DNA of 64,000 nucleotides, taken from positions 101,393 to 165,392 of the IMG/VR virus record IMGVR_UViG_3300045996_000852. One strand, given 5' to 3'. Below the pieces are notes generated by a model. The model searched no databases. It had not been told where the DNA came from and saw only the letters and a list, made by a program, of their open reading frames with translations. The DNA comes from a virus. Made by a program: the position numbers and the translations under genes. The first letter of the stretch is position 1, and the number at the start of each line of letters is the position of its first letter. This document shows, piece by piece, positions 4,439 to 64,000 of the stretch.

Positions 4439-4893
4439 TGGTCAAAGTTGTTTTTGTAATCCCAATAAGGTTTATTACTCAATTTATAGAAACTCTCTGT
4501 TTCTTTGTCAGGTTCCCCCCATTGAACCATACATTTGTATATGTATATTTCATGAGGTACATCATCAGGTTGATAATACCAAGTAGGGTCTCCAAGATAA
4601 CACTGTACTACAATCTTTTTCTTCTTCAAAGACCTCATGTATTCAGAGATAGTCTTTGATATTGGATATACCCATTGAGTCATAAATACAATACCATCAT
4701 GCTTCTGGATTTGTTTCTTTATTTCCTCCAAAGGTTGCTCACTCAGATTAAACATGACTGTATGTTTTATCCCGGCTCTCTTAATAATATTGTGAAATTC
4801 TTGTACAGAGCTACTGAAGGAGTTATCATTTTCTATAAATAGTAAATTCTTATCCTTGAAGCTATTTACTATATTTTGTTCGGGTGTGTTCAT
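4435..4893 (-). CDS. Hypothetical protein
   Basis: A 152-residue protein with alternating hydrophobic strands and helices, suggesting a small alpha/beta fold. The ATG at 4893 is chosen because it follows the upstream stop by 7 bases; a longer version would overlap that gene by about 60 bases. No motif assigns a function. Confidence 0.6.
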   Translation of the reverse strand: MNTPEQNIVNSFKDKNLLFIENDNSFSSSVQEFHNIIKRAGIKHTVMFNLSEQPLEEIKKQIQKHDGIVFMTQWVYPISKTISEYMRSLKKKKIVVQCYLGDPTWYYQPDDVPHEIYIYKCMVQWGEPDKETESFYKLSNKPYWDYKNNFDQ

Positions 4894-4900
4894 GATTAAG

Positions 4901-5110
4901 TTATTGAATTTCAAAGAATTGTCCCTCATAACTGTTATCCCGGGAGTTGGATAATCTCTCATCTGTAGCTAAACATGTAATATAGCTATCACCATGTTTC
5001 TTCAAGTCGTTGTGTTTTGACTTAGTAAAAGCATCAAATCCTTCTTTTCTGAACCATTCAGAGAAGTTCTTAGCTGCTTGTTTATCAGGTACTACTATTT
5101 GTATTTCCAT
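4901..5110 (-). CDS. Hypothetical protein
   Basis: A 69-residue soluble protein, possibly a small alpha/beta fold. No recognised family. It starts 2 bases after the upstream stop. Confidence 0.6.
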   Translation of the reverse strand: MEIQIVVPDKQAAKNFSEWFRKEGFDAFTKSKHNDLKKHGDSYITCLATDERLSNSRDNSYEGQFFEIQ

Positions 5111-5112
5111 GA

Positions 5113-5376
5113 TTATCCTTTAAAAGTTTGAACAATGTATTGAATTTGACCATATACAGAATGGGAGTTTCTCTGAGGTCTATACCATTCCCTTATGAAT
5201 TGACACCAAAGGGATTCTACCGTATTTGCATAAATGAAATCTCCTGACATATTTGGTACAGGAATTCTGTAATTTCCAAGCTGTACTAGATCAGGTTCTC
5301 CCATTATATTACGAGCTTCCTCTACATAAAAAGCCCAAGCTTCGGGATGTAGTTCTGAGTTAGACTGTGATTCCAT
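5113..5376 (-). CDS. Hypothetical protein
   Basis: An 87-residue soluble protein, Trp- and Tyr-rich. No motif recognised. Overlaps the upstream gene by 17 bases. Confidence 0.6.
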   Translation of the reverse strand: MESQSNSELHPEAWAFYVEEARNIMGEPDLVQLGNYRIPVPNMSGDFIYANTVESLWCQFIREWYRPQRNSHSVYGQIQYIVQTFKG

Positions 5377-13105: not shown

Positions 13106-13190
13106 CAATGCCTTACCCACGGATGAACAGGTAAAGAACTACAGGTCTATCTCCCTGCTTGTTAGGCATCCGTTCATATTTTTCCGGGTG

Positions 13191-13647
13191 TGGAGGTGAT
13201 CGGGGTCGAACCGATGTCCAAACATAATAATCAGTCGAGAGTTACGTGTGTGACTAGCTTTATCATCCCTGTCTTGGATTATCTCAGTTGTGAACTGGAA
13301 ACTGTGCCTGTTTGCATAGTTATACTGTACACTCCACAGGCTGACTTCTAACAGTTACCTTTCTAAACCTCAGGTGGGTTCGGGAACTAGACTAATTCTA
13401 ATTCTTCTTCTGCCACTACCTCAGCAGGGAACAGAGAAGTTAAGAAAGAATCAAGGTTTCCATCTTCTCCTACAGTCACGTTAGACTTAGCAGGAGAGTT
13501 TGCTTCAACATTAACACTGTTAACATTAGAAGCGGCAACATTTGTGTTTGCGTTTATTTTTTGAATATTCAGATTATAGACCTAATTATCCAACGGTCTA
13601 CACGCCCTCTTCCCATTACCCATGCTGTCAAAACCAAGTACACCCCC
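13191..13647 (-). ncRNA. ssrA: tmRNA with very long tag reading frame
   Basis: Transfer-messenger RNA. The 5' end GGGGGTG (13647-13641) pairs with the 3' end CACCTCC (13198-13192), discriminator A at 13191, no encoded CCA. The 5' side carries TTTTGACAG; the 3' side has a T arm with TTCGACC and an ATCGG/CCGAT stem. A TAGACC/GGTCTA pair marks the first pseudoknot. The resume codon is the GCA in AAACGCAAAC (GCA at 13550-13548). From there the frame reads Ala-Asn-Thr-Asn-Val-Ala-Ala and continues to a TAG at 13388-13386, 54 sense codons, ending Glu-Leu-Glu-Leu-Val. Usual tags are about 8-35 residues and end near Ala-Ala. The RNA is about 457 bases, longer than most, by about the extra tag length. 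Confidence 0.9.
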
Positions 13648-25026: not shown

Positions 25027-26592
25027 TTAAGGAAATGATTCACTGTGACTACAATGATTACATACATACTTCTGAGTTCCTTGAGGAGATACAAAACCTT
25101 CAGGTATCATTTCACCCTCTGAACAATCAGGACATGGAAATTCTCTTTCATCCACTTTAGGATATAGTTTATTCCATGCATCAAGTACAGGTTTGTGAGC
25201 ACCCTTCAGAACTTTAAACCAGTTATCCTTGTTTAATGTTCCTCTGTCTTGTAGTTCCAGAGCATGATTGATTATTTCTCCCATATGTGTTCCCGGCTCA
25301 ATACCTATTTCCATAAGTTTCTTACCAGTTACAATAGGTTGCATATCACCATTTTCCATGAGTTTCATAGCATGAACAACATACATTATCCTTGCTACAT
25401 CCACAAAACTAGGTGCAGGTTTAGGTGGTCTACCTGCTAAATCACAACGTACAACCTCGATGAGTTCGGTATATAATATACCATAATGCATCAATTCTCT
25501 CAGAGTCCTACGAACAATTTTGTCATAGTTCTTAGGAGTAATTGATTTATTTCTCATATGTAATCTTACTAAACAGGCAATCTTCCTGATTGTAGCATGA
25601 TTATCAAATGATATACGTTGTAATAAATTACGGGTGAGTTCTACACCTGTTTCTTCATGACCAGCAGATGATATTTTACTATCCTTATCCTTATGAGATA
25701 CTACATCATCATATATCAGGTCTTTCCAGTTCTGACCACCAATTGTAGTGGATACAGCTTTGCCTAAATCATGACAAAGCATTACTGCTCTTGTGAATGG
25801 GTCATTTGCTGCATCCATACATAACATTGTATGAGTGTAAGCATCACCTTCTGGATGATATTCTCTTGGTTGAGGTACTCCAATTAAGTCATTTAACTCT
25901 TTGAAATGATGTCCCAACCAATTTATCTTCTTGAGGAAGTTAAAGAACTTAGAAGGCTTGTTTGATTGTTCAAACAGTTTCCTTAGTTCCATACCAACTC
26001 TCTCATTAGATATATCATCTGGTTTTAATATTTCACACATTTGAACCAATTCCTCAGATGCAGTAAGATCAAAACGTGCAATGAATCTTGCAGCACGATA
26101 TACCCGGAGTGTATCTTCAGCAAAAGCTACAGATGTAGGATGAGCAAGTCCCATAATAATATGTCGTATACCATTAAAAGGGTCTATCATTTCATCTGTA
26201 AGGACATTCTTTGCTATAGCATTGATGGTCAAGTCTCTACGTCTTAAATCCTCAGTAATGGTAACATTGTTTACCTCACATTCAAATTCAGTACGTGTCT
26301 GACCTGATTTCTTCTCAGTACGAGCCATAGCAAATTCATACTTCTTACCATCTACTTCTACAATCCAGATAGGAAATGAACCAAATACTGTAGTTACACC
26401 ATTAATGTATCCATTGGTTTTCATTATTTCCAGAAGTTTACCAACATTCTGTGCAGTATTACCACCAACAATACAAATATCAATGTCTTCAGGCTCATTA
26501 CCCATTACCCAATCACGTACACAACCACCAACATAATAGAGTTGTATACCATGACCTGATAACCATTGAGCTAATTTTATGATCTTCTCCAT
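25027..26592 (-). CDS. cca: CCA-adding tRNA nucleotidyltransferase with HD domain and zinc ribbon
   Basis: A 521-residue class II tRNA nucleotidyltransferase. It shows YYVGGCVRDWVMG (19-31), catalytic Asp-Ile-Asp, RRDLTINAIA and the EDTLRVYRAARF signature, then an HD domain (LCHDLGK). An added C-terminal module, CPDC then CNHC, forms a zinc ribbon absent from usual bacterial enzymes. All tRNAs in the window lack an encoded CCA, so this enzyme may finish them. Poly(A) polymerase activity is the main alternative; the HD domain favours CCA addition or repair. Confidence 0.85.
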   Translation of the reverse strand: MEKIIKLAQWLSGHGIQLYYVGGCVRDWVMGNEPEDIDICIVGGNTAQNVGKLLEIMKTNGYINGVTTVFGSFPIWIVEVDGKKYEFAMARTEKKSGQTRTEFECEVNNVTITEDLRRRDLTINAIAKNVLTDEMIDPFNGIRHIIMGLAHPTSVAFAEDTLRVYRAARFIARFDLTASEELVQMCEILKPDDISNERVGMELRKLFEQSNKPSKFFNFLKKINWLGHHFKELNDLIGVPQPREYHPEGDAYTHTMLCMDAANDPFTRAVMLCHDLGKAVSTTIGGQNWKDLIYDDVVSHKDKDSKISSAGHEETGVELTRNLLQRISFDNHATIRKIACLVRLHMRNKSITPKNYDKIVRRTLRELMHYGILYTELIEVVRCDLAGRPPKPAPSFVDVARIMYVVHAMKLMENGDMQPIVTGKKLMEIGIEPGTHMGEIINHALELQDRGTLNKDNWFKVLKGAHKPVLDAWNKLYPKVDEREFPCPDCSEGEMIPEGFVSPQGTQKYVCNHCSHSESFP

Positions 26593-32715: not shown

Positions 32716-32789
32716 GGGTGATATACCAGATTCGAACTGGTACGAAGACAACCACAATGTCTCATGCTGACCGTTACATTAATACCACC
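32716..32789 (-). tRNA. tRNA-His (GTG)
   Basis: Acceptor GGTGGTA/TATCACC, anticodon stem AGACA/TGTCT with loop TTGTGGT, T arm with TTCGAAT. No encoded CCA. This is a second His tRNA besides 60949-61019. Confidence 0.8.
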
Positions 32790-32796
32790 GTATTTG

Positions 32797-32871
32797 GGTC
32801 TCATAGCAGATTCGAACTACTATCAAGGGCATGATTGGAAGCCCCTATCCTAGCCATTAGACGAATGAGAC
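32797..32871 (-). tRNA. tRNA-like gene with enlarged anticodon loop
   Basis: Acceptor GTCTCAT/ATGAGAC, D arm GTCT...GGAT and T arm AGTAG-TTCGAAT-CTGCT are intact. The anticodon stem GGGGC/GCCCT encloses ten bases, TTCCAATCAT, instead of seven. Standard numbering gives CCA (Trp) and a one-base shift gives TCC (Gly), so identity is uncertain. It may be a pseudogene or a functional variant. Confidence 0.65.
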
Positions 32872-32876
32872 CATAT

Positions 32877-32996
32877 AAATCTTTATATTATGAGATACCT
32901 TTTCCGTGGTCACTGGTTATCCAGTATGTGTTTTACGTTCCACACCCCTTTTCGGTGACATTGTACTCAGTTGGCTCTTATTTAATATAAAGATTT
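32877..32996 (-). ncRNA. Stem-closed structured RNA between two tRNAs
   Basis: Minus strand: AAATCTTTATATTA (32996-32983) pairs exactly with 32890-32877, 14 pairs enclosing 92 bases with an ACTGG/CCAGT hairpin. It fills the gap between two tRNA genes almost exactly, 1 base from one and 5 from the other. Confidence 0.6.
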
Positions 32997-32997
32997 G

Positions 32998-33069
32998 GGT
33001 GCTGTAAAGGAATCGAACCTCTCTTTCAGGCAGAAAAAGCCTGTGTCCTAGCCGATAGACGAACAGCAC
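32998..33069 (-). tRNA. tRNA with Glu-like body and TTT anticodon
   Basis: Acceptor GTGCTGT/ACAGCAC, D arm GTCT/GGAC, anticodon stem CAGGC/GCCTG, loop TTTTTCT, T arm AGAGG-TTCGATT-CCTTT. Normal numbering gives UUU (Lys) with an unusual C37, while the D arm and spacing resemble tRNA-Glu, whose anticodon UUC would need a one-base shift. Identity uncertain. Confidence 0.7.
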
Positions 33070-52484: not shown

Positions 52485-54017
52485 ATGGAAAATTTCAGCT
52501 ATCATGTTCCTGTCTACGTAGTAGATAGTGGTGTAGCAACTTCCGGTCACTCTTCTGATATGGCTGCAAAGAAGGTGGGTATATTTGCTAGAAATGGCTT
52601 CAATGTATTCACATCTGCAAGCTCTGAGAAAGAAGTATTCTTTGCTCAGGCTCCTAATGGGGGTAAAGATTGGTACGGGTTACCTCTCACTGGAAGTCAT
52701 AAATCTCCTTTCTTCAGAATTGAAGATGTGGAAGATATTTATTTATCTCTGCCTCAGAGCATTCAAAATGAAGAGTGGATTATCGGTTACAACGGTTCTC
52801 CTACTTCAAAGGGATTGATATTTGAGAAAGGTAAGGCTACTAGAGTAAAATTATATTTCCACGGAGAACCTATTTATAGATTCTTCAACGGACCTAAAGA
52901 GTATGTGATTTCTCATACTCCTGAAGTACCTTGTACTACTCCTTGTGACACTGGTGATTGTGATGATGCAATCTCAGATGTAATCTTGGAAGCAAAGAAA
53001 CTTATTGAGAAAATTAACACTCATACAGAACTTCAGAAGTTCGGTGTTAAGGCTTTCATGGTATTCGATGACTATTCCAATGAAGGTACTGGTGGTACTA
53101 CAACTGCTACTAAAGAATTCAGAATTACATTAGCTAGAACTGCTGCTGGTGCTTCAAGAGAAGCTGACATCAGACTTGCTGTAGCTGGTGTAGATGGTAT
53201 AGTAACCTCAGGTGGTAACGTAACTGTTACTAAGACTGCTGGTGAAGGTACTACAACTGAAGGTGTATCTGATGACTACGTAGTAACATTGACTTCTTAC
53301 GAGAAGGCTGATGCTGAAGGTGGTCTTTCAAGCAACGTTTCTTTCAACTATGCTGTACTTCCTGCTATTGAAGGTGCTTCATGGGTAGAGGTTGCTGGTT
53401 CTGAAACTGATGCTGCAACTTCTGCTTCTGCAACTCCTGTTGCTAACAGAAAAATAGGTATCAGAATCACTGCTGGATACATTGACCCTAAATTTGGTAA
53501 CTGTTCTTTTGACCCTAAAGACTACTACGAGACTCAACCAGTTAAAATGGAAGTTTCACTTCTTCAAGAAGATGGTAGCAAGTGTGATGCAGCACTATGG
53601 CCTTCTGTTCTTCAAACTAAGGTTGGTAGAATAGCTAGACAAACTGGTGAATATGTAGTAAGAGAATTGCTGATGAAGCAAGGTGCTTATCTGAAACATA
53701 TGAATGCATTCTCTCTTGACCCAAGGGATAGAGAAGCATTTGACCAAAGATTGCTTGATACTGTTGATAGGAATGCTTATTACAAGCTTTACTACATCAG
53801 GTTCAAAGCTAGCTATGGTAATAGCTTCAGAAAGAATGAGCAAGAAAAGTTCACTGCTGTATTTGCAATCAAAGATACTGATTCTTCAACTAACACTGCA
53901 TTCAACACTAACATTGTTGATGTACTGGAAACTAAGACAGGTATTGTGATGCACACTAACAGCGTTCTTCCTGATGACATAACAACAACTTCAACTACTA
54001 CGACTACAACTCTGTAA
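52485..54017 (+). CDS. Putative tail protein with Ig-like insert and Thr tail
   Basis: A 510-residue protein. The first 160 residues look compact; residues 200-330 are Thr/Ala/Gly-rich and beta-like, possibly an inserted Ig-like domain; 345-490 complete the core; the end is DDITTTSTTTTTT. By position it is a main tail (tube, sheath or ring) component. It is followed by a strong terminator. Confidence 0.6.
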   Translation: MENFSYHVPVYVVDSGVATSGHSSDMAAKKVGIFARNGFNVFTSASSEKEVFFAQAPNGGKDWYGLPLTGSHKSPFFRIEDVEDIYLSLPQSIQNEEWIIGYNGSPTSKGLIFEKGKATRVKLYFHGEPIYRFFNGPKEYVISHTPEVPCTTPCDTGDCDDAISDVILEAKKLIEKINTHTELQKFGVKAFMVFDDYSNEGTGGTTTATKEFRITLARTAAGASREADIRLAVAGVDGIVTSGGNVTVTKTAGEGTTTEGVSDDYVVTLTSYEKADAEGGLSSNVSFNYAVLPAIEGASWVEVAGSETDAATSASATPVANRKIGIRITAGYIDPKFGNCSFDPKDYYETQPVKMEVSLLQEDGSKCDAALWPSVLQTKVGRIARQTGEYVVRELLMKQGAYLKHMNAFSLDPRDREAFDQRLLDTVDRNAYYKLYYIRFKASYGNSFRKNEQEKFTAVFAIKDTDSSTNTAFNTNIVDVLETKTGIVMHTNSVLPDDITTTSTTTTTTL

Positions 54018-54040
54018 TTAGTTGATTTGGATATAACCTA

Positions 54041-54075
54041 GAAAGGTGGTAGGCAGAAGTCTGCCACCTTTTTTA
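54041..54075 (+). terminator. Rho-independent terminator
   Basis: AAAGGTGG...CCACCTTT stem with inner GGCAGA/TCTGCC pairing, followed by TTTTTT. Confidence 0.85.
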
Positions 54076-54123
54076 ATTTAAAGAATTATTTCGATTTATC
54101 AACTATTTTAAGTATTTTATATT

Positions 54124-54672
54124 GTGCTAAAGACTGAATTATCAATAGATATATCCCCTAGCTTAAATCCGAAGATACTTAGGATTTTCGATACTTCTCA
54201 TTATTGTAATCATGAGGATATTGAGAATTATATTGTTGAGATTCTTCCGGTTAATAAATCTAAATGGATAACATTCCATGTATCCAAGGGTTTTTCTTTA
54301 GCTCTTAACTCTTCCAATTTGTTATACAGAAAGGTAGGTGATGAATCTGGATTGATTCCCCTTCCTGATGGTATTTACGAAATAAAGCAATCAATCAAGC
54401 CAAATCTTTACACTGTTCAACTGTATTATCACTTAAGAACTGTTGAATTTGATAGAAAGATTAAAACTGAAAGGGAGAAGCTTTTAAGTGGTCAATGTTC
54501 TATTTCAAGAGATGATTTCATGAAAAATAGAGATGCTCTCAGAGAAATAGAGGAATATGTTTTGGCTGCTAAATGGAAAGTGGAAGAATGTAATGAAAAG
54601 AAAGAAGGGATTGAACTTTATAAATATGCTGAAAAGCTTTTAGAAAACTATACCAATGAATGTCAATGTTAG
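54124..54672 (+). CDS. Hypothetical tail-region protein
   Basis: A 182-residue protein starting with GTG at 54124, with a beta-rich N-terminal 100 residues and a helical C-terminal part. First gene of the tail-fibre operon. Overlaps the next gene by 17 bases. Confidence 0.6.
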   Translation: MLKTELSIDISPSLNPKILRIFDTSHYCNHEDIENYIVEILPVNKSKWITFHVSKGFSLALNSSNLLYRKVGDESGLIPLPDGIYEIKQSIKPNLYTVQLYYHLRTVEFDRKIKTEREKLLSGQCSISRDDFMKNRDALREIEEYVLAAKWKVEECNEKKEGIELYKYAEKLLENYTNECQC

Positions 54673-54943
54673 TAATCTTAAATCGAAGTTTGCAAACCTC
54701 AAGTTTGAACAATTACTAGCAGATAAGTATTTTGTAGAAACCTGTTTTTCTAAAAAGTTTGACTCTAACCCTCAAAGGGAAATTTTAAGGGATACACTTC
54801 TAAGAATCAGAACCTACACTGAAATAACAGATGTGATTGTTTGTAGAGACTGTATTGTGGTTGAGGATTGTGGTTGTCATGATATAGATGAAATCCAAGT
54901 GGAACACATTTGTAAAACAATAATTTCAATAGTAATAGAATAA
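54656..54943 (+). CDS. Hypothetical Cys-containing protein
   Basis: A 95-residue protein with a Cys cluster (CRDC and CGCH, residues 63-74). No family recognised. Overlaps the next gene by 1 base. Confidence 0.6.
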   Translation: MNVNVSNLKSKFANLKFEQLLADKYFVETCFSKKFDSNPQREILRDTLLRIRTYTEITDVIVCRDCIVVEDCGCHDIDEIQVEHICKTIISIVIE

Positions 54944-55761
54944 TGCATACAATAACTATAACAAAAGTAACACTAGCTTCAACTATAGACAATGATTTCT
55001 ATGTGGAGATTGCTTGGAGGTATGGTACTTCCGGTGAGTTTACTATAGTTGCTACAAAAGCAAAGGTTGATGAGGATGGTAATTTGTATTCTCCTATTTC
55101 TATTACCTTTGATACTGAAGAGAATGAAACCATTCAAATCAGAACTATTTTTAAGAGTGAGAATACTACGTGTCCTCCTTATTATCAAGAATATACATTT
55201 GTACCTCCTACGACTACAACGACAACTACAAGTTCAACAACTACAACATCTTCGACAACTACAACCACAACCCTACCTCCTTGTAAAGAATACTTTATTG
55301 AGAACTCAGGTTTTGGTCCTAAAGACTTGTCATATACAAATTGTAACAACGAACAAGTTAATGAAGTATTAGACGGTGGAAGTCAGATAACAATATGTGC
55401 TTTGGAAGGAACTGTTGTAACAACTGCTGATATTACTGAAGAAGGTCTTTGTCCTAGTGGAAGTCCTATAACTACTACCACAACAACTACCACAAGTACT
55501 ACTACGACAACAACTATAGCTCCTACTACCACGACTACCACAACTAGTACGACAACTACTACAACACTTGGTCCTGCTGATTGTAATTTGATACAGTTTA
55601 TAAATAATACTGGTTCAAGTAAGGAAATATTCTGGACAAGTTGTGAAGGTAACGCATTAGGTGCAACTATAGCAGCAGGTCAAACACTTACTTATTGTGT
55701 AGACCTTAATCAACCTAGAACACTGAACGGTGTAACTGAATTTAGTCTAGGGGATTGTTAA
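54943..55761 (+). CDS. Threonine-rich tail/fibre protein
   Basis: A 272-residue protein of three small domains joined by long Thr/Ser tracts (about residues 87-113 and 180-210). The second and third domains share a Cys-containing pattern (a NxTG/NSG start, a C-x2-N/G turn and an IC/YC strand), so the protein is repetitive. Thr linkers of this kind occur in virion proteins of Bacteroidota phages and may be glycosylated; that is inference. Confidence 0.7.
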   Translation: MHTITITKVTLASTIDNDFYVEIAWRYGTSGEFTIVATKAKVDEDGNLYSPISITFDTEENETIQIRTIFKSENTTCPPYYQEYTFVPPTTTTTTTSSTTTTSSTTTTTTLPPCKEYFIENSGFGPKDLSYTNCNNEQVNEVLDGGSQITICALEGTVVTTADITEEGLCPSGSPITTTTTTTTSTTTTTTIAPTTTTTTTSTTTTTTLGPADCNLIQFINNTGSSKEIFWTSCEGNALGATIAAGQTLTYCVDLNQPRTLNGVTEFSLGDC

Positions 55762-60060: not shown

Positions 60061-60153
60061 ATGAAAAAGAATCGTCAACATACGTGGTTTACCTTTACTC
60101 AGTGTCCGTTTGGATATTGTGAGGGTTGCCCTGTATGTACGATTATGAGATAA
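60061..60153 (+). CDS. Attenuator leader peptide of tRNA operon 1
   Basis: A 30-codon frame with TAA stop. Residues 5-17 are RQHTWFTFTQCPF; every one is Arg, Gln, His, Thr, Trp, Phe, Cys or Pro, exactly the eight identities of the tRNAs that follow. The codons (CGT, CAA, CAT, TGG, TTT, TGT, CCG and Thr codons) are readable by those tRNAs. The 3' half overlaps attenuator regions 1 and 2. A direct protein function is unlikely. Confidence 0.75.
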   Translation: MKKNRQHTWFTFTQCPFGYCEGCPVCTIMR

Positions 60154-60208
60154 ATATTTTCAAAGTTGTATACCTCAAGGAATCCTCACAGAAATGTGGG
60201 GATTTTTT
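60098..60208 (+). promoter_or_regulatory. Transcription attenuator of tRNA operon 1
   Basis: Hairpin 1:2 is CTCAGTGTCC (60098-60107) with GGATAT and TGAG (60112-60123). Antiterminator 2:3 is TGTGAGGGTT (60118-60127) with AATCCTCACA (60181-60190), 10 pairs. Terminator 3:4 is AATCCTCACA-GAAA-TGTGGGGATT plus TTTT (60181-60208). The 2:3 and 3:4 folds exclude each other. A ribosome stalled in the test codons would cover region 1 and favour 2:3. Confidence 0.8.
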
Positions 60209-60215
60209 GTTATAA

Positions 60216-60289
60216 CTAGTTGTAGTTCAGCCCGGTAGAACACTTGCTTTGGGAGCAAGGGGTCGTAGGTTCGAATCCTGCCAGCTAGA
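60216..60289 (+). tRNA. tRNA-Pro (TGG)
   Basis: Acceptor CTAGTTG/CAGCTAG, anticodon stem CTTGC/GCAAG, loop TTTGGGA, T loop TTCGAAT. First tRNA after attenuator 1. No encoded CCA. Confidence 0.9.
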
Positions 60290-60351
60290 CAAAAGTCAAT
60301 GTATATGTTTACAAGTTAACTTAAAAGTAAACTTATAAGTTGACGAAATAA

Positions 60352-60422
60352 GTCTCCGTGTCCGAGTGGTTAGGAAGAGGTCTGCAAAACCTTGCACACC
60401 AGTTCGAATCTGGTCGGGGATT
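60352..60422 (+). tRNA. tRNA-Cys (GCA)
   Basis: Acceptor GTCTCCG/CGGGGAT with wobble pairs, loop CTGCAAA, T arm ACCAG-TTCGAAT-CTGGT. No encoded CCA. Confidence 0.9.
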
Positions 60423-60423
60423 C

Positions 60424-60487
60424 AAAAGATTGTTCCTTTAAAAAGGAAGACGAGTGAAAGTGGATAGCGGTCTCCACCAATCTTTTT
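60424..60487 (+). ncRNA. Stem-closed spacer between tRNAs
   Basis: AAAAGATTG pairs with CAATCTTTT and encloses TTCC/GGAA and GTGGA/TCCAC hairpins. It fills the space between tRNA-Cys and tRNA-Thr. It may guide processing. Confidence 0.4.
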
Positions 60488-60491
60488 ATAA

Positions 60492-60564
60492 GCCGTGGTA
60501 GCTCAACTGGTAGAGCACCTGCCTTGTAAGCAGGGGGTTGGAAGTTCGATTCTTCTCCACGGCT
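60492..60564 (+). tRNA. tRNA-Thr (TGT)
   Basis: Acceptor GCCGTGG/CCACGGC, anticodon stem CCTGC/GCAGG, loop CTTGTAA. No encoded CCA. Confidence 0.95.
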
Positions 60565-60663
60565 CTTGGACTATTGTAAAAGATGGTCCCGGAAGGTTGC
60601 CGAATGAAATAACCTCTCCTTATGGGAGTATCCGAAGTGCGGATAGTGAAAAGTCGGAGCTAA

Positions 60664-60736
60664 GGTGCAGTAGCATAGCTGGTCTGTGCAGGGGACTGAA
60701 AATCCCAAGGTGTGAGTTCGACCCTCACCTGTACCA
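60664..60736 (+). tRNA. tRNA-Phe (GAA)
   Basis: Acceptor GGTGCAG/CTGTACC, loop CTGAAAA, T arm GTGAG-TTCGACC-CTCAC. The top pair of the anticodon stem is G-A. No encoded CCA. Confidence 0.9.
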
Positions 60737-60744
60737 CTTAATAT

Positions 60745-60815
60745 ACGTGTGTGGTGAAATGGTATCATGACGGTCTCCAAAACCGTTGTTGGGAGTTCGA
60801 ATCTCTCCATACGTG
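60745..60815 (+). tRNA. tRNA-Trp (CCA)
   Basis: Acceptor ACGTGTG/CATACGT, anticodon stem ACGGT/ACCGT, loop CTCCAAA, discriminator G. Confidence 0.9.
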
Positions 60816-60875
60816 CTGAATGTTGCATATTTTACACATTTCCTGTATTTTTGTGTATTATATGAAACATTATAT

Positions 60876-60946
60876 TTCTCTCTGGTGTAATGGTAACATA
60901 TCAGATTTTGGCTCTGATGTTCAAGGTTCGACCCCTTGGGGAGAAA
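60876..60946 (+). tRNA. tRNA-Gln (TTG)
   Basis: Acceptor TTCTCTC/GGGAGAA, anticodon stem TCAGA/TCTGA, loop TTTTGGC, T arm CAAGG-TTCGACC-CCTTG. Confidence 0.9.
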
Positions 60947-60948
60947 CT

Positions 60949-61019
60949 GTGGCTGTAGCTTAATGGTAAAGTGGTAGTTTGTGGCACTACTGATGGGAGT
61001 TCGATTCTCCTCAGTCACC
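60949..61019 (+). tRNA. tRNA-His (GTG)
   Basis: Acceptor GTGGCTG/CAGTCAC, anticodon stem GTAGT/ACTAC, loop TTGTGGC, discriminator C. Confidence 0.9.
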
Positions 61020-61061
61020 CAACATGTACTAATTTATTACAAATTAGTAGATATTAGTAAG

Positions 61062-61134
61062 GCACTTTTAGTTTAACTGGATAGAATATGGGGCTACGGA
61101 CCCCAAGGTACTTGTTCGAATCAGGTAAGGTGCT
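61062..61134 (+). tRNA. tRNA-Arg (ACG)
   Basis: Acceptor GCACTTT/AAGGTGC, anticodon stem TGGGG/CCCCA, loop CTACGGA. Reads CGT, the Arg codon at position 5 of leader 1. Last tRNA of operon 1. Confidence 0.9.
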
Positions 61135-61165
61135 CAAAAATATTTTTAAAAAATATGAAGAAAAA

Positions 61166-61197
61166 TTTGGTAGTTTGGCATATTCTTCGTATTATTG
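61166..61197 (+). promoter_or_regulatory. Promoter of tRNA operon 2
   Basis: TTTG (61166-61169) in ATTTGGTAGTTTGG, 20 bases, then GTATTATTGTATTG (-7 box 61190-61197). Nearly identical to the operon 1 promoter in both boxes and in spacing. Confidence 0.75.
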
Positions 61198-61227
61198 TAT
61201 TGTAATTAAAAACAGACAAAGCAACAA

Positions 61228-61323
61228 ATGTTACATTCTTATATGATAGTGGATAATGGGATTAACCTAAGAGGTGCGGAGAAATCTGCCTCAGGGTTCC
61301 TATTGTCTGATATTATCGTATAA
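61228..61323 (+). CDS. Attenuator leader peptide of tRNA operon 2
   Basis: A 31-codon frame with TAA stop. Residues 6-19 read MIVDNGINLRGAEK: Met, Ile, Val, Asp, Asn, Gly, Arg, Glu and Lys, the same set as the tRNAs seen in operon 2, plus one Leu and one Ala. Codons include ATA (Ile2), ATT, AGA (tRNA-Arg TCT), GGG and GGT (both tRNA-Gly species) and AAA. The frame overlaps attenuator regions 1 and 2. Confidence 0.75.
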   Translation: MLHSYMIVDNGINLRGAEKSASGFLLSDIIV

Positions 61324-61380
61324 GATAAATATAGATCAGATTAAAAGAACCCTGAGGCTCCTAAGCTTCGGGGTTTTTTG
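61271..61380 (+). promoter_or_regulatory. Transcription attenuator of tRNA operon 2
   Basis: Hairpin 1:2: GAG-GT-GCGGA (61271-61280), loop GAAA, TCTGC-CTC (61285-61292). Antiterminator 2:3: GCCTCAGGGTTC (61288-61299) is an exact complement of GAACCCTGAGGC (61347-61358). Terminator 3:4: AACCCTGAGGCT-CCTA-AGCTTCGGGGTT, 12 pairs, then TTTTT (61348-61380). The folds are mutually exclusive. Same layout as operon 1. Confidence 0.85.
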
Positions 61381-61386
61381 TTTTAT

Positions 61387-61459
61387 ACCCTCGGAGCTTA
61401 TGTGGACAAGCTGCTCACTTTTAATGAGAGGATAGTAGGTTCGAATCCTATCGGGGGTA
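61387..61459 (+). tRNA. tRNA-Lys (TTT)
   Basis: Acceptor ACCCTCG/CGGGGGT, loop CTTTTAA, T arm GTAGG-TTCGAAT-CCTAT. It starts 7 bases after the attenuator terminator. Top anticodon-stem pair is G-A. Confidence 0.85.
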
Positions 61460-61497
61460 CATATGAAACAATTCGTGATTTGCGGATTGCGGATTAT

Positions 61498-61570
61498 GCT
61501 CCTATAGCTTAATCGGTAGAGTACCTGACTCTTAATCAGGGGGTTCTGAGTTCGAGTCTCAGTGGGAGCA
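61498..61570 (+). tRNA. tRNA-Lys (CTT)
   Basis: Acceptor GCTCCTA/TGGGAGC, anticodon stem CCTGA/TCAGG, loop CTCTTAA. Confidence 0.95.
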
Positions 61571-61611
61571 CTTTAACATTTACTTAGTTCTTATAGTTCT
61601 TATATTTAGAT

Positions 61612-61785
61612 ATGAGAATCTATATAGGAATCAGAAAACCAAGTAAAGATAGAAAAGGAAACATTGGAACTACTTGGGAAGAACAAGTTAATGGTAGTTA
61701 CATATGTAAAGAAACAAGAAAAGTGCTTAAACAATGGCAAATTGAAAATGATTTTAGATTAGGTTATTTAGAAATAGTTCCTTAA
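61612..61785 (+). CDS. Small basic protein overlapping tRNA-Val
   Basis: A 57-codon frame of basic character with several aromatic residues. Its last three codons and stop lie in the acceptor of tRNA-Val. A TTCTTATATTTA sequence just upstream resembles a -7 box. Function unknown. Confidence 0.55.
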   Translation: MRIYIGIRKPSKDRKGNIGTTWEEQVNGSYICKETRKVLKQWQIENDFRLGYLEIVP

Positions 61786-61848
61786 CTCAGTTGGTAGAGT
61801 GTCATCTTTACATGGTGAAAGTCGTCAGTTCGAGCCTGACAGGAACTA
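61776..61848 (+). tRNA. tRNA-Val (TAC)
   Basis: Acceptor AGTTCCT/AGGAACT, anticodon stem TCATC/GGTGA, loop TTTACAT, T arm GTCAG-TTCGAGC-CTGAC. Confidence 0.9.
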
Positions 61849-61940
61849 CAAAAGGGTGCTGTGAATAATGAAGTTAATAAACAGGACTGCCTCGTTTCTG
61901 GAATGGTCGTTGGGTAGCTGATGACATCCTTACTTCACTT

Positions 61941-62012
61941 GGTCCCATAGTTAAATGGATATAACTTCTGCCTTCTAAGCAGATATTCGTGGTTCGATTC
62001 CACGTGGGACTA
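61941..62012 (+). tRNA. tRNA-Arg (TCT)
   Basis: Acceptor GGTCCCA/TGGGACT, anticodon stem TCTGC/GCAGA, loop CTTCTAA. Reads AGA, present in leader 2. Confidence 0.9.
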
Positions 62013-62022
62013 CAAATAATAT

Positions 62023-62096
62023 TCCCCTGAAGCTTAAGTGGTATAAGCTACTGCCTGTTAAGCAGAAGATAGTTGGTTCGAGTCCAATTGGGGGAG
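62023..62096 (+). tRNA. tRNA-Asn (GTT)
   Basis: Acceptor TCCCCTG/TGGGGGA, anticodon stem with CTGC/GCAG, loop CTGTTAA, discriminator G. Confidence 0.9.
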
Positions 62097-62113
62097 CATA
62101 AAAAAAACCAAAC

Positions 62114-62395
62114 ATGGATAATATATTTTCCAAAGGTGATAAATATGTTCACTTTAAAGAAGACGGTACTATTGTAACAGGAGAAGTTAAATCAGTAGTA
62201 TTAAGTCAGGTTTCGGATTTAACTGGATTTTGTTATGAGGTGATAAATCTTGAAACACAAGATAATAAAATATTATCAATAGGTCAGACAAAAGGAAGGA
62301 TTCATAAATTAAATCATACTATGACTCCCGAAGAGAAAGATAAATTTAATAGGGGTGAATTTGTAGATAATACTCCTTGTAGAAGAGAAAATTAA
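62114..62395 (+). CDS. Hypothetical protein inside tRNA operon
   Basis: A 93-residue soluble protein. The N-terminal half (GDKYVHFKEDGTIVTGEV) suggests a small barrel, perhaps RNA-binding; the C-terminus is charged. Leader has AAACCAAACATG. Function unknown. Confidence 0.65.
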   Translation: MDNIFSKGDKYVHFKEDGTIVTGEVKSVVLSQVSDLTGFCYEVINLETQDNKILSIGQTKGRIHKLNHTMTPEEKDKFNRGEFVDNTPCRREN

Positions 62396-62398
62396 TAT

Positions 62399-62470
62399 TG
62401 CGAGGTAGAGCAGCGGTAGCTCGGAAGGCTCATAACCTTTAGGTCGGGGGTTCGATTCCCTCCCTCGCTA
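62399..62470 (+). tRNA. Initiator-like tRNA-Met (CAT)
   Basis: Positions 1 and 72 are T and T, unpaired, above GCGAGG/CCTCGC. The D arm (TAGAGCAGCGGTAGCTC) and GGCTCATAACC loop closely follow bacterial initiator tRNA. The anticodon stem has two, not three, G-C pairs. No encoded CCA. Confidence 0.8.
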
Positions 62471-62477
62471 CAAATAT

Positions 62478-62550
62478 TGTGAGGTGCTTGTAACGGTAAC
62501 TGGTCAGGCTCATATCCTGAACGATGTCGGTTCGAATCCGACTCTCGCAA
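62478..62550 (+). tRNA. tRNA with CAT anticodon (Met or Ile2)
   Basis: Acceptor TGTGAGG/TCTCGCA, anticodon stem TCAGG/CCTGA, loop CTCATAT, T arm GTCGG-TTCGAAT-CCGAC. The D stem is weak. Elongator Met and lysidine-type Ile2 cannot be told apart by eye. Confidence 0.85.
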
Positions 62551-62551
62551 C

Positions 62552-62722
62552 ATGAGATTTTTACTGCTTATGATATTCTTTATTTCCTGTAGAAATGGAG
62601 AGTATAAACCAAATCACATAGATGGTGTCTATGTAAAAAATAAACACAATGGAAAAGTACTTCAAAACAGTGGAAGGAAAGTATGTGAATATTGTGAAGC
62701 ATACTTTGGAACAACTAAATAA
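62552..62722 (+). CDS. Possible small lipoprotein overlapping DUF458 gene
   Basis: A 56-codon frame with a hydrophobic N-terminus ending Phe-Ile-Ser-Cys13, lipobox-like. It overlaps 62649-63134 by 74 bases in another frame, so only the first part is independent. Confidence 0.35.
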   Translation: MRFLLLMIFFISCRNGEYKPNHIDGVYVKNKHNGKVLQNSGRKVCEYCEAYFGTTK

Positions 62723-63134
62723 GTGGGATGATTTGAGAATCTATGTTGGTACAGACTCTCAAAGTGAAAGTGATTTTACAATGTATGCTACTACAATCTG
62801 TTTTAGGTATGGTAATAGAGGTGCTCACTATATTGTATTCAAGGAAAAAGTTCCAAGAGTTCGTGTAGAATACATGAGATTATACGATGAAGGTTTAAGA
62901 ACATTAGCTGCTTCTAAATTCTTGAATGATGAATTACAAATATTCCCATTCCTAGAGTTTGACTATGCTGATGTTAAGAAAACTGTTTCTTCAAACTTAG
63001 TTAGTGTATTTAAAGGTTATCAGAATGCAAGATTCAAGTCAGAAGAAATGATTGCTACAAGAGCAGCAAATCATGAGTGTAGAAAGGAAAGTAATATGTT
63101 CAATCTTGAAGAAGCATTGAAACAAGCAGCTTAA
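62649..63134 (+). CDS. DUF458/YkuK-like RNase H-fold protein
   Basis: A 161-residue protein. RIYVGTDSQ (30-38) followed by a strand and hairpin matches the DUF458 (YkuK) family, predicted to have an RNase H-like fold with the Asp as an active-site residue. Being inside a tRNA operon, an RNA-processing role is conceivable, but activity is unproven for the family. Confidence 0.7.
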   Translation: MEKYFKTVEGKYVNIVKHTLEQLNKWDDLRIYVGTDSQSESDFTMYATTICFRYGNRGAHYIVFKEKVPRVRVEYMRLYDEGLRTLAASKFLNDELQIFPFLEFDYADVKKTVSSNLVSVFKGYQNARFKSEEMIATRAANHECRKESNMFNLEEALKQAA

Positions 63135-63240
63135 TACCGTATCGGGTTTTGTGGTATAAGGAGACCCTGCCTTATTGTCGAAAGACGGATAAGAAAAACC
63201 ACTTTAAATATCTCCCATAGAAGGTGCTTGCGGTGACCTT
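63135..63240 (+). other. Structured non-coding spacer
   Basis: No gene found. GTGGT/ACCAC encloses a TTATTGTC-GAAA-GACGGATAA hairpin, followed by AGAAGGT/ACCTTCT. It precedes tRNA-Gly. Confidence 0.45.
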
Positions 63241-63246
63241 CTCTAA

Positions 63247-63318
63247 GCAGGAATGGTGTCAATGGTAACACACAAGACTTCCACTCTTGGGTTGAGAGTT
63301 CGAATCTCTTTTCCTGCT
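63247..63318 (+). tRNA. tRNA-Gly (TCC)
   Basis: Acceptor GCAGGAA/TTCCTGC, anticodon stem CAAGA/TCTTG, loop CTTCCAC. Confidence 0.9.
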
Positions 63319-63407
63319 CAGGTCAGTTTGATTGTTCTGCGTGTAGTTAAAAACAATCTTGTAGTCGGATGGTAACTCCCCAAAATGTTATCGGATGACT
63401 ACTCCTT

Positions 63408-63480
63408 GCAGTAGTAGCTCAATTGGTAGAGTGCCACCTTGCCAAGGTGGAAGTTGACAGTTCGAATCTGTTCTACTGCT
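63408..63480 (+). tRNA. tRNA-Gly (GCC)
   Basis: Acceptor GCAGTAG/CTACTGC, anticodon stem CCACC/GGTGG, loop TTGCCAA. Confidence 0.95.
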
Positions 63481-63481
63481 C

Positions 63482-63598
63482 AATTAACTTATGACAGTGA
63501 AACTGTCGGGGTCCGTAAGTATCTACGTAACCATCCGTAGTGAACGTCCGGGTGATGATGTCCAGACCCTTGAGGACTTATCAACCTATGTTAATTAT
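63482..63598 (+). ncRNA. Stem-closed spacer between tRNAs
   Basis: AATTAAC pairs with GTTAATT, enclosing a GACAGT-GAA-ACTGTC hairpin and further pairing. It fills the space between tRNA-Gly and tRNA-Glu. A reading frame across it and two tRNAs is treated as chance. Confidence 0.4.
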
Positions 63599-63600
63599 CT

Positions 63601-63673
63601 GCCCCTATCGTCTAGTGGTCTAGGATACACGACTTTCTATCGAGTGACACGGGTTCGAATCCCGTTGGGGGTA
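63601..63673 (+). tRNA. tRNA-Glu (TTC)
   Basis: Acceptor GCCCCTA/TGGGGGT, loop CTTTCTA, T arm ACGGG-TTCGAAT-CCCGT. One A-A mismatch in the anticodon stem. Confidence 0.85.
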
Positions 63674-63678
63674 CATTT

Positions 63679-63750
63679 CGAGGTATGGTTGAATGGTACA
63701 ATGCCGGATTGTCAATCCGTGTGGTACGGGTTCGAATCCCGTTATCTCGG
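63679..63750 (+). tRNA. tRNA-Asp (GTC)
   Basis: Acceptor CGAGGTA/TATCTCG, loop TTGTCAA, T arm ACGGG-TTCGAAT-CCCGT, discriminator G. Confidence 0.9.
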
Positions 63751-63756
63751 CTTAAT

Positions 63757-63842
63757 CGTCCTACTCCTCCTGTGGAATCTATCCACGAAGCAACTGAGGC
63801 TAGGTTGTGATACAGTAACCACTGTAGGGAGGACGTAGGACA
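63757..63842 (+). ncRNA. Stem-closed spacer between tRNAs
   Basis: GTCCTACTCCTCC pairs with GGAGGACGTAGGAC (one bulge) and encloses a GTGGA/TCCAC hairpin. It fills the space between tRNA-Asp and the next tRNA. Confidence 0.5.
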
Positions 63843-63846
63843 AAAT

Positions 63847-63919
63847 AGACTCTTAGCTCAGTTGGTAGAGCAAGATGCTCATAACATCGAGGTCACCAGT
63901 TCGAATCTGGTAGAGTCAA
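63847..63919 (+). tRNA. tRNA with CAT anticodon (Met or Ile2)
   Basis: Acceptor GACTCT/AGAGTC with an A-A mismatch at 1-72, elongator-type D arm AGCTCAGTTGGTAGAGC, loop CTCATAA, T arm ACCAG-TTCGAAT-CTGGT. Confidence 0.85.
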
Positions 63920-63924
63920 CACAA

Positions 63925-63998
63925 GTTGGTATAGCTCAATTGGTTAGAGCACCACGCTGATACCGTGGAGGTTGAAAGTTCGAGTCTTTCTATCAACA
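63925..63998 (+). tRNA. tRNA-Ile (GAT)
   Basis: Acceptor GTTGGTA/TATCAAC, anticodon stem CCACG/CGTGG, loop CTGATAC. The window ends 2 bases after it; the operon probably continues. Confidence 0.95.
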
Positions 63999-64000
63999 CA

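Follow-up and report, generated by a model that had tools for sequence, protein, structure and literature searches.

Amino acid operons of enterobacteria are governed by attenuators such as the trp, his, thr, ilvGMEDA and pheST leaders, of which those of thr and ilv monitor more than one amino acid. Here we describe putative attenuators of the same class upstream of transfer RNA (tRNA) operons in a phage known from the virus record IMGVR_UViG_3300045996_000852, of which a 64,000-nucleotide stretch (the window) was analyzed; this is the final 64 kb of the 165,392-base record. Judged by its terminase and portal proteins, the phage lies near the crAss-like phages, and it carries three tRNA operons, each with its own leader open reading frame (ORF) upstream. 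As in the amino acid operons, a short leader ORF with control codons is combined with protector, antiterminator and terminator alternatives, and a Rho-independent terminator precedes the first gene. The phage loci differ in that the regulated product is the tRNA itself, a single leader covers up to ten amino acids, several leaders share out most of the tRNA set, and the setting is viral, with hosts in the Bacteroidota where known. No sequence relation to Rfam families was found; among the Rfam covariance models run over the window, only tRNA and transfer-messenger RNA (tmRNA) reached the gathering score, and none of the leader families (His_leader, Trp_leader and others) did so. T-box riboswitches also let decoding capacity control genes through antitermination, but they do so independently of translation, by direct binding of uncharged tRNA, and neither a T-box covariance model match nor a specifier loop was found in the phage.

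The codon match, the terminator, the alternative folds, their geometry and their recurrence are present in the DNA. On this basis we consider it very probable that each tRNA operon is under ribosome-mediated transcription attenuation and is switched on when any codon listed in its leader is decoded slowly. The class of mechanism is known; its target, the multi-codon logic and the viral setting appear to be new, and the arrangement looks like a previously undescribed sensor of tRNA supply.

Leader peptide 2 and tRNA operon 2

The predicted elements of this locus, all on the + strand, are as follows.

61166..61197, +: promoter-like site of operon 2 from sequence reading, with TTTG at 61166-61169, TATTATTG at 61190-61197 and a 20-base spacer
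61228..61323, +: leader peptide 2 ORF, MLHSYMIVDNGINLRGAEKSASGFLLSDIIV, from ATG at 61228 to TAA at 61323, with counterparts in three relatives
61243..61284, +: control codons MIVDNGINLRGAEK (segment 1), 13 of 14 in the operon 2 amino-acid set, with 11 of 12 isoacceptors covered
61288..61299, +: antiterminator 5' arm GCCTCAGGGTTC (segment 2), within the leader ORF, 3 bases past the last control codon
61345..61380, +: intrinsic terminator of operon 2 (segments 3:4 and T run), between the leader ORF and tRNA-Lys(TTT)
61348..61359, +: antiterminator 3' arm GAACCCTGAGGC (segment 3), overlapping the terminator 5' arm
61387..63999, +: window part of tRNA operon 2, which runs on across the record ends to tRNA-Ala(TGC)

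The tRNAs were called by ARAGORN and Rfam, with some divergent ones assigned by eye because the programs miss them. The calls in operon 2 (Lys TTT, Lys CTT, Val TAC, Arg TCT, Asn GTT, Met, Met, Gly TCC, Gly GCC, Glu TTC, Asp GTC, CAT and Ile GAT) agree with the set listed in the initial annotation, and the CAT tRNA at 63847, proposed there as an Ile2 candidate, occupies the same place as Ile(TAT) in the relatives G001 and G004. The annotation had also stated that leader 2 covers this set with only Leu and Ala in excess. The coverage holds and Leu is indeed extra; Ala is not, because a divergent tRNA-Ala(TGC) at L001:130-204, just beyond the window end, closes operon 2. This gene is missed by both ARAGORN and Rfam, aligns with the called tRNA-Ala(TGC) of relatives and has a near copy in phage phi38:1. 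The record ends repeat over 127 bases, and the tRNA array therefore continues across them. No AAG codon is present in leader 2 for the Lys(CTT) tRNA.

When leader 2 is tested by peptide composition, only 0.06% of random peptides contain a run of 14 residues of which 13 or more are in the set and which includes all ten amino acids. Taken singly it is nonetheless the weakest of the three leaders: with as many as ten amino acids in the set, equally large random sets match its score 5% of the time. The comparative data described below settle the predicted match.

The promoter-like element, which resembles the Bacteroidota type, recurs before other leaders. The leader ATG of several phages is found 4 bases past a TAnnTTTG promoter element (for example L103:6299-6311, and L118 near 4448 and 5098), and translation may therefore start on a leaderless transcript. 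The operon 2 spacers (window 61776-63999) are long, look base-paired and contain small ORFs between the tRNA genes.

Leaders 1 and 3

The elements of leader 1 and operon 1, and the place of leader 3, are as follows.

60061..60153, +: leader peptide 1 ORF, MKKNRQHTWFTFTQCPFGYCEGCPVCTIMR
60073..60111, +: control codons of leader 1, RQHTWFTFTQCPF, 13 of 13 in set
60117..60134, +: antiterminator 5' arm of leader 1, duplex −17.9 kcal/mol versus −9.4 for shuffles, p=0.002
60183..60208, +: intrinsic terminator of operon 1
60216..61135, +: tRNA operon 1, encoding Pro, Cys, Thr, Phe, Trp, Gln, His and Arg(ACG)
Record 520-612: leader 3, MNQVLSYYSSLSLLLQNKENGNSMSEEQIG, followed by a terminator and then operon 3

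The leader 1 core leaves none of the eight amino acids or eight tRNAs of operon 1 uncovered, in line with the match originally proposed. Operon 3, which lies outside the window, encodes Leu CAA, Leu TAG, Leu TAA, Ser TGA, Ser GCT and Tyr GTA; the leader 3 core, LSYYSSLSLLL, is built from operon 3 amino acids only and offers at least one codon for each of the six tRNAs. The in-set cores of leaders 1, 2 and 3 thus amount to 13/13, 13/14 and 11/11 residues, respectively.

Conservation among crAss-like relatives

The layout is kept in six IMG/VR relatives, and G001, G002, G004 and G005 show the same leader–operon match as the window phage. The leader 1 cores of relatives read RQWHTPTCTQCPF, RTHTWQPFTQCPF, RTHTWFTTCPQCPF and QRHTWPTFTQC, the leader 2 cores MIVDRMIGANEK, MIVDNIEARGNEK and MIVDRINGAEK, and leader 3 contains SYYSSLSLL and similar sequences. 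In the stretch of G005 that was read, operon 2 and leader 2 were both not seen. G003 and G007 have a single tRNA, for Cys, together with Cys-rich leaders containing PCCAQC or PCCTQC. When IMG/VR was searched with exact DNA patterns for the cores of leaders 1 and 3, nothing emerged beyond the known relatives and chance matches without an adjoining tRNA array, and more distant crAss-like contigs with 1-7 tRNAs had no matched leader.

Among the relatives, the order of residues is scrambled while composition is kept (RQHTWFTFTQCPF versus RQWHTPTCTQCPF; MIVDNGINLRGAEK versus MIVDRMIGANEK). This speaks against the leader being a nascent-chain arrest peptide or a functional micro-peptide in which the amino acid sequence is important, as does the evidence given below that codon choice matters beyond the amino acid. 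Retention of SYYSSLSLL in leader 3 and of MIVD in leader 2 would fit such a peptide, which we nevertheless regard as highly improbable.

Two further observations concern these genomes. A tRNA with anticodon CTA (an amber suppressor, called Pyl by ARAGORN) is present in G001 and G004 (L016:5956-6028; L019:6936-7008), and a tRNA-Leu of G005 is apparently split at the anticodon loop by an insert coding for an HNH-endonuclease-like protein (L020, reverse complement about 4755-5290).

Matched leaders in unrelated and huge phages

Altogether, 37 leader–operon pairs were found in crAss-like relatives, cultured phages and uncultured huge phages. The cultured phages are Cellulophaga phi17:2, phi38:1 and phi10:1 and Tenacibaculum phage Gundel_1. 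In phi17:2 (and phi4:1), QRLHLQELEQP precedes Pro Glu Gln His Leu Leu Arg(ACG), TKTGITVIDKTKGARA precedes Ala Lys Ile Gly Met Asp Thr Val Arg(TCT) Met, and NYCTYNNSNWSFSY precedes Tyr Ser Ser Asn Trp Phe Cys. The three leaders of phi38:1 (and Calle_1) resemble these in composition and differ in order. WSYSCFSYSF precedes Tyr Trp Phe Ser Cys in phi10:1, and the Gundel_1 leaders contain YSYSCFSSWF and NNLHIQQNNLP.

The huge phage LR745206 (634,780 bases, 7 operons) was entered as a control in an automated scan, and a matched leader emerged there: TTMNLNMTMNLTLNVVNITLCNIR precedes 19 tRNAs for Asn, Arg, Leu, Val, Ile, Thr and Met. The other arrays of LR745206, together with LR756501 (735,411 bases, 5 operons), yielded eleven further pairs. 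In these two phages YESYYEE precedes Glu/Tyr, QQIQQQQ precedes Gln Gln Gln, YNDYCIND precedes Ile/Cys/Asp/Asn/Tyr, SKHSKHFSSSSKWF precedes Trp/His/Phe/Lys/Ser and TPAPAVAFRRGTGTGTGT precedes Arg/Thr/Val/Ala/Gly/Pro, while the leader of one Leu operon contains all six Leu codons. Matched leaders of this kind occur in several unrelated Bacteroidota phages, whose sizes reach those of the largest known.

In the automated scan, phi38:1, phi10:1 and Gundel_1 obtained low scores, since part of their tRNAs escape ARAGORN and the operon limits were too wide. These three phages were afterwards read by hand, which introduces a bias; the permutation tests below limit it but do not remove it. Divergent tRNAs for Ala, Trp, Ser, Cys and Tyr that escape ARAGORN, and in some cases Rfam, occur at L001:130-204, L116:5018-5094, L117:5104-5430 and L118:4572-4966. 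As leader composition points to such missed genes, the leaders could serve as a tRNA finder, predicting tRNAs that annotation programs overlook.

Statistics of the leader–operon match

For each phage, a local log-odds score was computed for all leader–operon permutations. The true pairing ranks first in 10/10 phages with at least two operons, among 6 orders each in G000, G001, G002, G004, phi17:2 and phi38:1, 2 in G005 and Gundel_1, 5040 in LR745206 (rank 1/5040) and 120 in LR756501 (rank 1/120); the leaders of G000-G005 are related and hence not mutually independent. A matched leader was found in 0/11 other control arrays (DAC17, DAC19, G019, PAU, Lak-B1, Myrna, Erwinia KEY, Klebsiella Menlow, Vibrio D507, Gordonia Sixama and Bacillus P59). 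Coincidence, or an origin of the ORFs from tRNA-like sequence, could be argued from leader 2 alone, which is not extreme against random sets (p about 0.05); it is already contradicted by the 37 pairs, by the two huge-phage ranks and first places in eight further phages, and by the control arrays, and we find it barely credible. The initial judgment that chance was unlikely is thus upheld by the comparison across phages, and not by leader 2 on its own.

The match extends to isoacceptors. A codon for the isoacceptor is present in its own leader in 145 of 154 cases, compared with 131.2 ± 3.4 after synonymous recoding, and 0/2000 recodings did as well; codon choice counts beyond the amino acid. 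The first Arg codon of the leader is CGN in 8/8 operons with only Arg(ACG) and AGA in 7/7 operons with Arg(TCT) and no ACG, against a background in which AGR makes up 437/502 Arg codons in window ORFs; the earlier remark that AGA in leader 2 and CGT in leader 1 follow the Arg tRNA of their own operon agrees with these counts. These data also bear on whether the leader senses translation generally (slow ribosomes, antibiotics or ribosome shortage), its codon composition being a by-product. A terminator/antiterminator pair would answer any ribosome stall in the leader, but a general sensor would need no match to operon content, and composition follows that content in unrelated phages down to isoacceptors; we judge such a sensor unlikely.

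Alternative folds and proposed mechanism

The leader regions appear to contain the four segments of a classical attenuator. In leader 2, GCCTCAGGGTTC is the exact reverse complement of GAACCCTGAGGC over 12 bases, as first noted from the letters, and the antiterminator fold has a z score of −5.5 against shuffles, compared with −5.6 for the competing terminator hairpin. The antiterminator duplex reaches −31.1 kcal/mol versus −11.6 for shuffles (p=0.001), and in the full fold its 5' arm pairs with the control codons at 15/16 bases. Across the set, 32/37 leaders, including all three of the window phage, show antiterminator pairing stronger than that of dinucleotide shuffles at p<=0.05, with a combined Fisher p of 1.3e-25 (24 leaders, one set per phage lineage). 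In 37/37 cases the leader ORF folds better than the mean of its shuffles, and in most of these folds the control codons are the partner of the antiterminator arm, so that in unoccupied RNA a protector hairpin is predicted in silico. In the window leaders the antiterminator 5' arm starts a few bases past the last control codon, with the stop codon falling between it and the 3' arm. The terminator typically follows 16-36 bases past the leader stop codon, in a few cases up to 55; that of phi38_A was placed by hand. The hallmarks of trp/his-type attenuators are thus found in silico: an operon-linked short upstream ORF, an intrinsic terminator, a mutually exclusive antiterminator and a protector hairpin. 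Together with the isoacceptor match and the recurrence with other tRNA sets in unrelated phages, they favor the attenuation reading of the initial annotation.

We infer that the leader is translated and that its translation is coupled to transcription. A ribosome would translate the short ORF, in which the control codons are those decoded by the tRNAs of the operon that follows. Were a charged tRNA scarce, the ribosome would slow at any control codon and the next segment would stay single-stranded, free to pair with the terminator 5' arm, so that RNA polymerase would read through into the tRNA genes. Prompt decoding of all codons would let the ribosome cover that segment and reach the stop codon between the arms, and the terminator would form; it would form too without translation, when the control codons pair with the segment. 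Since slowing at any control codon would open the operon, the leader would act as an OR gate over a tRNA group released on demand, and its use to the phage may lie in replenishing tRNAs that run low through takeover or through tRNA-cleaving defences. The sign of the response (stall = on) is deduced from geometry only, which leaves an argument for the opposite, that stalling favors termination and shortage turns the operon off. However, a ribosome on the control codons would break the protector hairpin and free the antiterminator arm just past the last of them, and we consider the opposite sign very unlikely.

Several findings weigh against attenuation as proposed. Five antiterminators lie above p<=0.05, and the protector folds are individually weak in many leaders. 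Some leaders contain unmatched residues, namely Leu in leader 2 (its sole residue still without an operon tRNA), Asn and Ser in W1_a and Gln in W1_f. Several tRNAs were assigned by eye, partly with the leader already seen, and DAC17, DAC19, Lak-B1 and the crAss-like G019 are tRNA-carrying phages of Bacteroidota without such a leader.

Relation to previous work on phage tRNAs

Why phages carry tRNA genes is a question more than 50 years old (PMC10264068). Phage tRNAs counter tRNA-cleaving defences (PMC10264068, PMC11555353), and it is because of this work that we propose a role against such defences. As in those studies, phage tRNA genes would replace tRNAs depleted in infection; they differ in that their subject is the tRNAs and their cleavage, and PMC10264068 contains neither 'leader' nor 'attenuat'. 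The huge phages of PMC7162821 likewise have large tRNA sets, LR745206 and LR756501 being of the same size class, but its text also lacks both terms. A broad terminator survey (PMC2965389) discusses leader peptides located upstream of amino acid and synthetase genes without using the words tRNA gene, tRNA operon or phage; a crAss-like survey discusses tRNAs and mentions neither leaders nor attenuation. The literature searched gave no earlier report of leader peptides matched to tRNA operons, although most subscription papers lay outside its coverage, so novelty is unproven.

If the attenuation reading is true, leader-peptide attenuation would extend to tRNA genes, with one leader monitoring up to ten amino acids, and phage tRNAs would be made on demand, which would predict when and why they are needed and tie them to tRNA depletion in takeover or defence. 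More tentatively, and leaning slightly against it ourselves, we raise the idea of a general, repeatedly reinvented multi-input tRNA-supply sensor in phages of Bacteroidota, in which the matching set is withheld until one tRNA runs short, for instance through a host tRNA-cleaving defence, making it an inducible repair kit and not a constant codon-usage supplement. The cultured phages phi17:2, phi38:1, phi10:1 and Gundel_1 allow direct testing.

Other features of the window

Elsewhere in the window, a tRNA-His and tRNA-Lys pair (32716-33069, − strand) has neither leader nor terminator. The phage also encodes a tmRNA (13188-13647, − strand) with the tag peptide AEEELELV and a homologue of tRNA nucleotidyltransferase (CCA-adding; phrog_2244, 25027-26592, − strand). 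Downstream of the capsid gene, two predicted proteins (52485-55761) contain long Thr-rich repeats (TTTTTTSTTTT).
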